From a virus, in IMG/VR virus record IMGVR_UViG_3300017971_000545, positions 1-35,477 of that record: 35,477 nt of DNA; one strand, given 5' to 3'. Below are positions 15,022-17,547 of the stretch, in pieces. Position 1 is the first letter of the stretch; the number at the start of each line of letters is the position of its first letter. The notes below the pieces were generated by a model. It saw only the letters and a program-made list of their open reading frames with translations, was not told the DNA's origin and made no database searches. Made by a program: the position numbers and the translations under genes.

Positions 15022-15648
15022 ATGACCACCGAAAACCTGATGAACTTGACTCTTACCCACGGTTCCCACCAATCCCGCGAAGAGGGGACATGTCTCATGG
15101 AGGCCGTCGCATTCTTGGCGGGTGAGGCGCACTCAGATCGTCCCATGTGCGCTTGCCCCATTCTCGGGGCGTATGCGAGAGCCCTGAACGATCGTATGGG
15201 TGAGGGGGCAGAGGGTGATACCCTTCGGGAGAAGCACCTCCTGCCCCTTACCACGAAGTTGGTGGGGACTCGTTCGACCCCTGGGGTCGAGCGGAAGCGG
15301 GCACTCTACTTCGCTGACCGGGCGGTGCGGCTCTTTGCGCCGAAGGCGTTGGAAGCGGCAGGGTTCACCAAGGAAGCGGCGGCCCTTCGGGCGTTGCCCG
15401 AGATCGTGGATGAGCAGACTGCTGCTCGTGCTGCTGCTTATGCTGCTGCTGCTACTTATGATGATGCTGCTGAAGCTGATGCTGCTGCTAATGCTGCTTA
15501 TACTGCTTATACTGCTACTCATGATGATGATGCTGCAGCTTATGCTGCTTATGCTGCTGCTAATGCTTGGGAGGACGCGGCGGAAGTTCTCGCGGAAGCA
15601 TGTGAGATTGGTTCGTGTCCCACCAGGGGGTTCACCATCTCAAAATAA
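15022..15648 (+). CDS. HGSH/EEGTCLMEA-type protein with alanine-repeat tail
   Basis: 208 residues with GGAGG before the ATG. The N-terminal block LTHGSHQSREEGTCLMEAVA, then FLAGEAHSDRPMCACPILGA, is a conserved family I recall from phages and some bacteria (unknown function; Cys and His could bind metal). Residues 133-185 are almost only Ala, Tyr, Asp and Thr, encoded by GCT/TAT/GAT runs (about 15419-15565). GC content of the 5' part is clearly higher than the neighbours, suggesting transfer. The last 13 residues are encoded by a tRNA-like 3' end plus its flank, so the original C-terminus was lost or extended by recombination. Confidence 0.75.
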   Translation: MTTENLMNLTLTHGSHQSREEGTCLMEAVAFLAGEAHSDRPMCACPILGAYARALNDRMGEGAEGDTLREKHLLPLTTKLVGTRSTPGVERKRALYFADRAVRLFAPKALEAAGFTKEAAALRALPEIVDEQTAARAAAYAAAATYDDAAEADAAANAAYTAYTATHDDDAAAYAAYAAANAWEDAAEVLAEACEIGSCPTRGFTISK

Positions 15649-15712
15649 AGGTGAAAGTTAAGAAAAGGGTTGACAAGACAGGCTGAGTGTGATAGACTGT
15701 AGTCACGATGAG
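15625..15712. repeat. 88-bp direct repeat, copy A
   Basis: Nearly identical to 16482-16569. It holds a tRNA acceptor end (AGGGGGTTCACCA), flank ATCTCAAAATAAAGGT, and a complete promoter. In this copy the sequence also codes the end of the alanine-rich protein. Differences are a few bases in the promoter spacer and GTGAAAG versus GTCAAAG. Confidence 0.9.
15670..15698 (+). promoter_or_regulatory. Promoter of the interrupted tRNA-Lys
   Basis: TTGACA (15670-15675), 17-nt spacer ending TGA, TAGACT (15693-15698). Duplicated at 16527. Confidence 0.8.
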
Positions 15713-15751
15713 AGAACGGACCTCTAGCTCAACAGGTAGAGCATCGGACTT

Positions 15752-16452
15752 CAAGAAAGAAAAATAGGAGTGCTTATATAGAGATATATAAAGTAGAATT
15801 TGGCTGTATGCTGGAACACCCTTAGAGCTTTTGGTACCATTATCTTGGTGACAATTCAAAAGATTGGGCAATCAGCAGGAAACTAACAGGTCACTAATCC
15901 GACGCTTGACTATTTATTATAGAGGAGATAAACTTATAATGCATAGTAAAGCAAAAGGGACGATTGGTGAAGCGAAAGCAATACAACACTTTCTTCAAAA
16001 CGGATTTCGCGTATTTACGGAATTTGGGGATCTTTCAAGAATTGATTTGATTGTTGAAAAAAATAACCAACTTCTAAAAATACAAGTAAAGTCCTATACA
16101 TCGAAAGACAATAAAGTAGTCTTGTATAGTAAAAAAGCAGGACCAAACTATAATTTTCACTATACTGAGGGAGATGTTGATATATTTGCTGTGTATATTC
16201 TGGATAAGGATGAGTTGTTTTACGTATCGGCAAAAGAACTGTGTGCTATGAAATCGGGGCTCACATTTCGTCTTGCAGAGCCGAAAAACGGACAAAAGAA
16301 AATGATAAGATATCCTAAAGATTATACCCTTGAAAGGATCCTCAGAGACTACACGCCAAACACCCTAACAAGTAATGTTGAGGGTGATGATATAGTCCAG
16401 ACCACAACAGGTGACGAATTGTTGCTTGGCTAGTGAAAATTAGTGTGGTAGG
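15752..16452 (+). ncRNA. Group I self-splicing intron in tRNA-Lys
   Basis: 701 nt. All four conserved core elements are seen: P, ATGCTGGAAC (15808-15817); Q, AATCAGCAGG (15870-15879); R, TCAGAGACTACACG (16342-16355); S, GATATAGTCC (16389-16398). P pairs with Q (GCTG/CAGC) and R with S (GACTA/TAGTC). CTTTTG/CAAAAG forms a P5-like helix. P1: exon end ACTT plus intron C pairs with GGAGT near 15767, placing a U-G pair at the splice site. The intron ends in G (16452). R and S lie inside the endonuclease ORF, so the same bases serve ribozyme and protein. Confidence 0.88.
15939..16433 (+). CDS. Intron-encoded PD-(D/E)XK homing endonuclease
   Basis: 164 residues from the ATG at 15939, with AGAGGAG upstream. 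IGEAKAIQHFLQNGFRVF supplies Glu11, SRIDLIVEKNNQLLKIQVKS supplies Asp36, Gln49 and Lys51. This is the E...D...Q-x-K form of the PD-(D/E)XK core, as in the I-Ssp6803I type of homing enzyme, which sits in a cyanobacterial tRNA-fMet intron. It would cut intronless tRNA genes near the anticodon to spread the intron. The C-terminal 35 residues are encoded by ribozyme core and may have little protein function. A Holliday-resolvase-like role is less likely given the location. Confidence 0.82.
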   Translation: MHSKAKGTIGEAKAIQHFLQNGFRVFTEFGDLSRIDLIVEKNNQLLKIQVKSYTSKDNKVVLYSKKAGPNYNFHYTEGDVDIFAVYILDKDELFYVSAKELCAMKSGLTFRLAEPKNGQKKMIRYPKDYTLERILRDYTPNTLTSNVEGDDIVQTTTGDELLLG

Positions 16453-16481
16453 TTAATCCGCAGGTTCTGGGTTCGAGTCCC

Positions 16482-16569
16482 AGGGGGTTCACCATCTCAA
16501 AATAAAGGTCAAAGTTAAGAAAAGGGTTGACAAGACAGTCAGGACGTGATAGACTGTAGTCACGATGAA
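16482..16569. repeat. 88-bp direct repeat, copy B
   Basis: Second copy of 15625-15712. Here it starts in the acceptor stem of the tRNA-Lys exon 2, and its promoter drives tRNA-Leu(CAA). This is probably the original context (tRNA end, flank, promoter, next tRNA). Confidence 0.9.
16527..16555 (+). promoter_or_regulatory. Promoter of tRNA-Leu(CAA)
   Basis: TTGACA (16527-16532), 17-nt spacer ending TGA, TAGACT (16550-16555). Part of the repeated unit. Confidence 0.8.
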
Positions 16570-16670: not shown

Positions 16671-16705
16671 ATGGCGTGCCGGTTCGAACCCGGCTGCTCC
16701 TACCA
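16671..16705 (+). pseudogene. tRNA 3' fragment
   Basis: T-arm GCCGG-TTCGAAC-CCGGC (16678-16694), then acceptor strand TGCTCCT, A and CCA. No matching 5' half (AGGAGCA...) stands upstream. It directly abuts the 3' end of the HNH gene on the other strand, so the rest of the tRNA was probably lost when the region was rearranged. Confidence 0.75.
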
Positions 16706-16707
16706 CT

Positions 16708-17475
16708 TCAAACTTTATGTCTTCGGATTCTCTTTCTGACGGCATTATCACTAACACCAAGTTGTCTGCCAACAGCAGAATAACTCGTTCTTTCAACCAT
16801 TACTATAAGTTCGTCAACAGAAGGCCATTCTGTTTTTGTGGGCTGACTAAACTTGCCTTGGCAACTCTTACAGCGTTGCGCTTTGCGGCTAATAGCCACT
16901 CCACAATCAACACAGAAGTTTTGTTTTTTTACTCTTGGCTTTGGGGTTGATTCCTTTTTTCTCGGCTTCCTTGGCTTTGGGGTTGATTCCTTTTTTCTCG
17001 GCTTCCTTGGCTTGTTCTTACCTGCGTAAGTGCTTGTTTGGCTATGGCAGTTGGGACACAAGAGGCGAAGATTCTCTAATCTATGATCGTTGTTGACTCC
17101 GTTAATGTGATCTAAGTGAAGGGATAGGGGCTGACCCTGCCAATCAGCAATCCCACAGCAACTACACTCATAAGCGAGTAAGCCTTTGGAAAGTAACCTT
17201 TTCTTGATCTGACTACGATTTGTGTAATCTGATTCAGCAACCAAGATTTCTTCGAGAGTCTTCTTTTTGCTCCAATTGTGAGTGCGATTCTTTAAGTGCC
17301 CTTGTCCTGTAAAATGAGAAGTATCAAGACCCAAAGCCTTGACTCGACGCTTGAAAAGAGCATAGTTTCCACCAGTGGCTTTTAGCCCGAGAGCAAGAAG
17401 ACAAGACCTAACTGAATAGTTGTTCTTTACAGCATTTACGAAGTCTTCTTCGGTGTAAGAGGTTCTATCAAACAT
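16708..17475 (-). CDS. HNH homing endonuclease
   Basis: 255 residues from the ATG at 17475 (AGGAG 8 nt upstream on the minus strand); a longer reading from 17547 lacks a ribosome site. N-terminal block SVRSCLLALGLKATGGNYAL, with RRVKALGLDTSHFTG, is typical of a phage HNH family. HNH core: C104/C107, HLDHING (His120, Asp122, His123), N135, CPNCH (C140, C143, His144). Then a 12-residue repeat PRKPRKKESTPK in tandem, a second zinc ribbon (CVDC...CKSC) and a C-terminal HTH (YSAVGRQLGVSDNAVRKRIR). It is the only minus-strand gene and probably a free-standing mobile endonuclease inserted among tRNAs. Confidence 0.92.
   Translation of the reverse strand: MFDRTSYTEEDFVNAVKNNYSVRSCLLALGLKATGGNYALFKRRVKALGLDTSHFTGQGHLKNRTHNWSKKKTLEEILVAESDYTNRSQIKKRLLSKGLLAYECSCCGIADWQGQPLSLHLDHINGVNNDHRLENLRLLCPNCHSQTSTYAGKNKPRKPRKKESTPKPRKPRKKESTPKPRVKKQNFCVDCGVAISRKAQRCKSCQGKFSQPTKTEWPSVDELIVMVERTSYSAVGRQLGVSDNAVRKRIRRHKV
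16935..17013. repeat. 36-bp tandem repeat in the HNH gene
   Basis: Two perfect 36-bp units (16935-16970 and 16971-17006) plus 7 bases of a third. Each encodes 12 residues of a Pro/Arg/Lys linker between the HNH core and the C-terminal zinc ribbon. Copy number change would lengthen the linker in frame. Confidence 0.9.
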
Positions 17476-17547
17476 AATGGTAAACTCCTTTTTATGACGA
17501 ACTATAATAAGTAGTTGCTGGTTCGGAAAGTTCCACAAAAAAACCAC

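Follow-up and report, generated by a model that had tools for sequence, protein, structure and literature searches.

A mobile group I intron, encoding a nuclease of the I-Ssp6803I family, very probably interrupts a phage tRNA-Lys(UUU) gene between U34 and U35 of its anticodon. The window analysed here is the whole 35,477-nt stretch of the IMG/VR virus record IMGVR_UViG_3300017971_000545 (positions 1 to 35,477); among its phage genes are one for a GroEL and several for endonucleases. All features described below lie on the plus strand unless stated otherwise. The split gene occupies 15718-16494, where the first-pass annotation had placed a tRNA-Lys(UUU) whose halves join to 76 nt, and this description is confirmed. 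The 5′ exon runs from 15718 to 15751, through U34, and the 3′ exon from 16453 to 16494, beginning with U35 and with the CCA encoded. When joined, the 76 nt are scored by ARAGORN as tRNA-Lys(ttt) with all stems formed, giving a cloverleaf with the anticodon UUU and A73, the lysine discriminator. A plain tRNA scan, run without an intron mode, made no call for the unspliced gene.

The exact boundary was set by comparison with 22 viral contigs, found by a pattern in which the intron 3′ end is joined to TTAATC. In most of these homologous phage introns the 3′ boundary reads TAAG^TTAA, and on the 5′ side the intron starts after CTT. Run in intron mode, ARAGORN moves the boundary in the window by one base and reports tRNA-Asn(gtt), a reading in which the split gene is tRNA-Asn(GUU) and the intron lies between U33 and G34. 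The window intron by itself accommodates this shift, as it ends in TAGG and has a final G with either boundary. Applied to the homologous introns, which mostly end in TAAG, the shifted boundary would instead give a terminal A. The ribozyme guide GAG also sets U34, not U33, opposite its G, A73 fits a lysine tRNA, and intron-less relatives read CUUUUAA, all of which make a tRNA-Asn very unlikely. Since only the lysine boundary gives an intron-terminal G in the TAAG relatives, the splice sites are placed at CUU^...G^UUAA, with UUU as the anticodon of the product.

The intron between these exons is 701 nt long (15752-16452), ends in G, and has a G+C content of 36.5%, compared to 45.6% for the window. 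Its assignment to group I draws on covariance models of homologs and on compensatory changes, along with a sub-threshold Rfam match. In P1, the exon bases C32-U33-U34 pair with the internal guide GAG (15768-15770), which is invariant in the five introns we aligned, and the helix is extended by A31-U15771. P1 is short, at 3-4 bp, and places a U34·G pair at the splice site; this pair and the final G had both been proposed earlier and agree with the sequence and with the boundaries of the homologs. P2 is a hairpin at 15774-15791 (TTATATA-GAGA-TATATAA) with two-sided changes in 5 of its 7 pairs. The 5′ strand of P3 (15799-15804) pairs with 16355-16360, with two-sided changes in 4 of 6 pairs, and the 5′ strand of P4, the P element (15809-15814), pairs with the Q element at 15872-15877. 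The 5′ strand of P7 lies in the R element (16347-16351) and its partner in the S element (16393-16397), where an A-U to U-A change is seen. The P8 stem-loop occupies 16361-16386, and the P9.0/P9 region (16401-16449) contains ACCAC/GTGGT and a GAAA hairpin at 16430-16443. P4, P8 and P9.0/P9 were assigned by counting pairs on the alignment, and P4 is also covered by model R2, and P7 and P9.0/P9 by model R1, both described below.

Two covariance models, R1 and R2, were built from four homologous phage tRNA-Lys introns with the window left out. R2 matches the window at 15763-15882 (105 bits, E = 1.1e-21) and R1 at 16336-16452 (75.9 bits, E = 1.6e-15), the latter match ending on the last G of the intron. 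The general group I model of Rfam, RF00028, reaches a best score of only 24.7 bits in the window against a gathering threshold of 50, because an ORF of 495 bases, starting in the P6 loop, splits the ribozyme and interrupts the model. The search with group I intron models proposed by the first-pass annotation was positive with the models built from homologs and below threshold with RF00028. We aligned the cores of five introns (the window, L160, L143, L151, and L178), with most of the ORF removed from the window and L160, and RNAalifold recovered helices P2, P3, P4, P5, P8, and P9. In editing this structure by hand, we added the pairing of P7 together with a P6 of 2 bp and dropped one implausible local helix. 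In the edited structure, 97.6% of cells are paired, and two-sided changes occur in 28 of the 58 pairs, among them pairs of P3, P4 and P7; shuffled controls average 13.4 such pairs, and controls with slid partners reach no more than 6. Five sequences are a small sample, yet the slid controls fall far lower. The pair counts and both models indicate a P3-P9 core with the long-range pairings of P7 and P3. Together with the boundary comparison, these results uphold the proposal that a group I intron separates U34 from U35.

The ORF within the intron (15939-16433) encodes a protein of 164 amino acids, identified as a PDDEXK_5 homing endonuclease by family profile, fold, and a homolog in a related intron. 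A ribosome-site-like GAGGAG lies upstream, at 15922-15927, and none of 2000 base-shuffled versions of the intron contained a stop-free run of at least 164 codons. The protein matches PF11645 (PDDEXK_5) with 88.2 bits (cut-off 26.1, E = 6.6e-25), and its only significant sequence relative of solved structure in the PDB is I-Ssp6803I (2ost, E = 2.5e-6). An AlphaFold2 model, predicted from 13 sequences, has a mean pLDDT of 82.6, with residues 142-164 below 50. Foldseek with this model also returns 2ost first (E = 1.3e-9), and VIA-align superimposes 139 residues on 2ost at 2.6 Å with a Z score of 17.1, the next best match reaching 10.8. Other fold-search matches, to Hjc resolvases, SPARDA effector domains and EcoRV, have no more in common with the protein than the general PD-(D/E)XK fold. 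The earlier call of an I-Ssp6803I-type PD-(D/E)XK nuclease, for which a structure prediction had been suggested, is thus supported by both family profile and predicted fold. The active site proposed with it, E11-D36-Q49-K51, holds in part: D36, Q49, and K51 do not vary among the 13 sequences, nor does D81, so that the residues of a D-(x)n-Q-x-K active site are present, while E11 is not conserved among the 13 relatives and is F in L160.

A closer look at the end of the ORF shows how far it overlaps the ribozyme. From the P6 loop, the reading frame continues through P7, P3′, P8, and P7′, and the codons from residue 133 on are ribozyme core, with the P6 3′ strand starting at 16336, P7 at 16347, and P7′ extending to 16397. 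The structured part of the protein extends to about residue 140 and stops close to where this core begins, and the predicted disordered tail of ~23 residues is encoded by P3′, P8, and P7′ sequence. Since the codons from residue 133 on coincide with the core, the tail of low confidence in the model is core sequence translated into protein. The ORF of the tRNA-Leu intron L062 ends alike, with EGEDIVQTTT compared to EGDDIVQTTT in the window. This overlap implies that a translating ribosome would disturb folding of the ribozyme, so that translation and splicing would compete.

About 20 further viral contigs carry a tRNA-Lys intron at this position. Exact peptide patterns found no relatives of the window protein in viral contigs; the homologous introns were found through DNA patterns of the intron. 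The 12 kb around the locus have no near DNA match in phage records. Intron-aware ARAGORN gave many false split tRNAs on the relatives, and for this reason all split tRNAs used here were checked by exon joining or by homologous introns. Two of the siblings, L143 and L151, are ORF-less tRNA-Lys introns of 233 nt with almost the same core, scoring 79.8 and 71.3 bits with RF00028, and another tRNA-Lys intron lacking an ORF, L178, scores 70.9 bits; all three exceed the RF00028 gathering threshold. A close counterpart to the window intron is L160 (IMGVR_UViG_3300034105_003759), a 666-nt intron with the same tRNA, intron position, ORF place, and ORF family, whose protein is 41% identical to that of the window (E = 4e-38). 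It differs in pairs of P3, P4, P7, and P8 by compensatory changes, and lies in a different contig with different exons. Intron-less tRNA-Lys alleles, reading CTTTTAA, are found in nine viral contigs, the best of them identical to the joined exons at 68 of 76 positions; they belong to other phages, with no close sister of the window phage among them, and so provide no before-and-after pair for this locus.

The surroundings of the locus bear marks of rearrangement. A direct repeat of 89 nt flanks the split gene, its first copy at 15623-15711 and its second at 16480-16568, with 93% identity between them. The repeat holds the last 15 bases of the tRNA, a spacer, and a promoter, and it resembles a scar left by tandem duplication or by recombination. 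The promoter, read from the sequence, is a sigma70-like TTGACA-17-TAGACT at 15670-15698, upstream of the tRNA, and its motif recurs in the second copy of the repeat. A CDS at 15022-15648 is fused at its end to the first copy. Near 16672-16702 there is a tRNA 3′ half without a 5′ half, between a tRNA-Leu(CAA) and an HNH gene. This HNH endonuclease (phrog_10822; 16708-17547, minus strand) stands free in the tRNA cluster and resembles, by eye, the HNH ORFs inside phage tRNA-Leu introns. The repeat and the tRNA remnant would fit a tRNA gene that is no longer functional and an intron in decay, with structure inherited and splicing lost; since the core helices are all intact, the stems of the joined tRNA all form, and the ORF is open with D36, Q49, and K51 kept, we regard decay as improbable.

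For the preferred reading, an intact and mobile intron, a cycle can be proposed. A precursor would be transcribed from the promoter just upstream of the tRNA, and the ribozyme guide GAG would pair with the exon CUU so that the intron excises itself and functional tRNA-Lys is restored. In co-infecting phages, the nuclease would cleave the anticodon loop of tRNA-Lys genes that lack the intron, and repair of the break would copy the intron into the cut gene. Splicing, homing, and transcription from the promoter are steps we infer from the families involved.

PDDEXK_5 genes lie among or near tRNA genes in eight phage records that we inspected. In Enterococcus phage EFP01 (KY549443; about 1467-1929 of L003), the anticodon of tRNA-Asn(GUU) is interrupted by a 463-nt insert that is nearly all PDDEXK_5 ORF, from the M at 1498 of L003 to the stop at 1918-1920, and an Rfam search found no group I intron in this insert. 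The tRNA-Asn(GUU) is intact in the sister phages vB_Edu_21C1 and phiSHEF16, which share 99% identity with EFP01 over 268 bases on the 5′ side. The EFP01 case establishes that a free-standing tRNA-targeting nuclease gene can be inserted without a ribozyme, and the window ORF could in principle be read in the same manner. The insert in the window, however, contains a complete, covarying core, and the same intron has ORF-less siblings, so that we assign this explanation almost no weight and retain that of an intron-borne nuclease. A possible further insertion of PDDEXK_5 in a tRNA anticodon loop, of ~490 nt, lies near 542-1106 on the minus strand of L015 (MAG contig G001:C89); it leaves no room for a ribozyme, and the anticodon is uncertain. 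In L011 (2615-2918), a Clostridia tRNA-Tyr(GUA) contains an intron of ~218 nt, group I by eye, with a free-standing PDDEXK_5 gene ~70 bases downstream. There is about an even chance that PDDEXK_5 is a general phage family of tRNA anticodon-loop invaders, intron-borne in tRNA-Lys and tRNA-Trp(UCA) and bare in EFP01.

Phage tRNA introns as a class turn out to be widespread. A pattern of the S element and 3′ end finds at least 120 viral loci, and among the matches listed (L020-L139) 104 of 120 introns end inside a tRNA anticodon loop; as the pattern was chosen from these introns, the count tells that the class is common and is not a frequency. The tRNA-Lys site had been described as an unusual one, a view that finds no support in these 104 introns or in the tRNA-Lys introns, about 20 in number, that share its position. 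Among the matches listed, tRNA-Leu(taa) accounts for about two thirds of the introns, and the other hosts are Met, Arg, Tyr-like, Asn, Thr, Lys, and a UCA tRNA, with some of these identities depending on a guessed boundary. The 5′ exon ends in CTT in 74 of the 104 introns among the matches listed, mostly in tRNA-Leu(UAA), and this shared CUU may explain why one position is occupied in tRNA-Leu(UAA), tRNA-Lys(UUU), and tRNA-Trp(UCA). ORFs of at least 90 codons are present in 23 of the introns among the matches listed, and all carry HNH-type motifs, an assignment made by eye. The rarity claimed for the window's nuclease type is in keeping with this result. Among tRNA-Lys introns, those of the window and L160 were found to contain PDDEXK_5 ORFs, and so were four introns of tRNA-Trp(UCA) (L140, L141, L019, and L010). 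In the latter four, the ORF precedes most or all of the core, in contrast to its place in P6 in tRNA-Lys, which suggests separate acquisitions. The tRNA-Trp(UCA) of these four is split between U34 and C35, and the phages are apparently UGA-recoded. In L019 and L010 the intron ORF contains an in-frame UGA, so that its translation may need the spliced tRNA.

According to a review from 2014, all phage introns then known were in protein genes, despite the many phage tRNA genes (PMC3984707). Our literature search, which took in few subscription journals and no preprints, found no later report of phage tRNA introns. Introns of this class, long thought absent, are common in IMG/VR, and they repeatedly contain a nuclease class that had been represented mainly by I-Ssp6803I. 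Phage tRNA introns thus become directly testable, and alleles that have or lack the intron are available in nature. Split genes escape tRNA finders that have no intron mode, and phage tRNA counts are accordingly too low. The introns also bear on how phage tRNAs are made; in recoded phages, for instance, the tRNA that reads UGA would first have to be spliced.

Position 34/35, where the window intron lies, is also occupied by the classical bacterial tRNA-Leu(UAA) group I intron of the Anabaena type. Both follow an exon ending in CUU, and the tRNA-Leu(UAA) intron is the commonest phage tRNA intron among the matches listed in our survey; the window intron differs in its tRNA and in the nuclease ORF in P6. 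Phage tRNA-Leu introns (L021, L034, L077, and others) likewise are group I, sit in the anticodon loop, and carry homing-nuclease-like ORFs, but these ORFs are HNH-type whereas that of the window is PD-(D/E)XK. Introns in tRNA genes with nucleases of this second type are a kind known from cyanobacteria. I-Ssp6803I and its intron were described in the tRNA-fMet of Synechocystis (Bonocora and Shub, 2001, as cited in PMC3984707). As in the window, that system combines a PDDEXK_5 nuclease of the PD-(D/E)XK fold with a group I intron in the anticodon region of a tRNA, and the two folds correspond closely, as the superposition on 2ost shows, with about 20-24% identity in structural alignments. The host is a cyanobacterial tRNA-fMet in one case and a phage tRNA-Lys(UUU) in the other. 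The window intron belongs to the I-Ssp6803I kind, and what is new is its carriage by a phage and its tRNA-Lys host.
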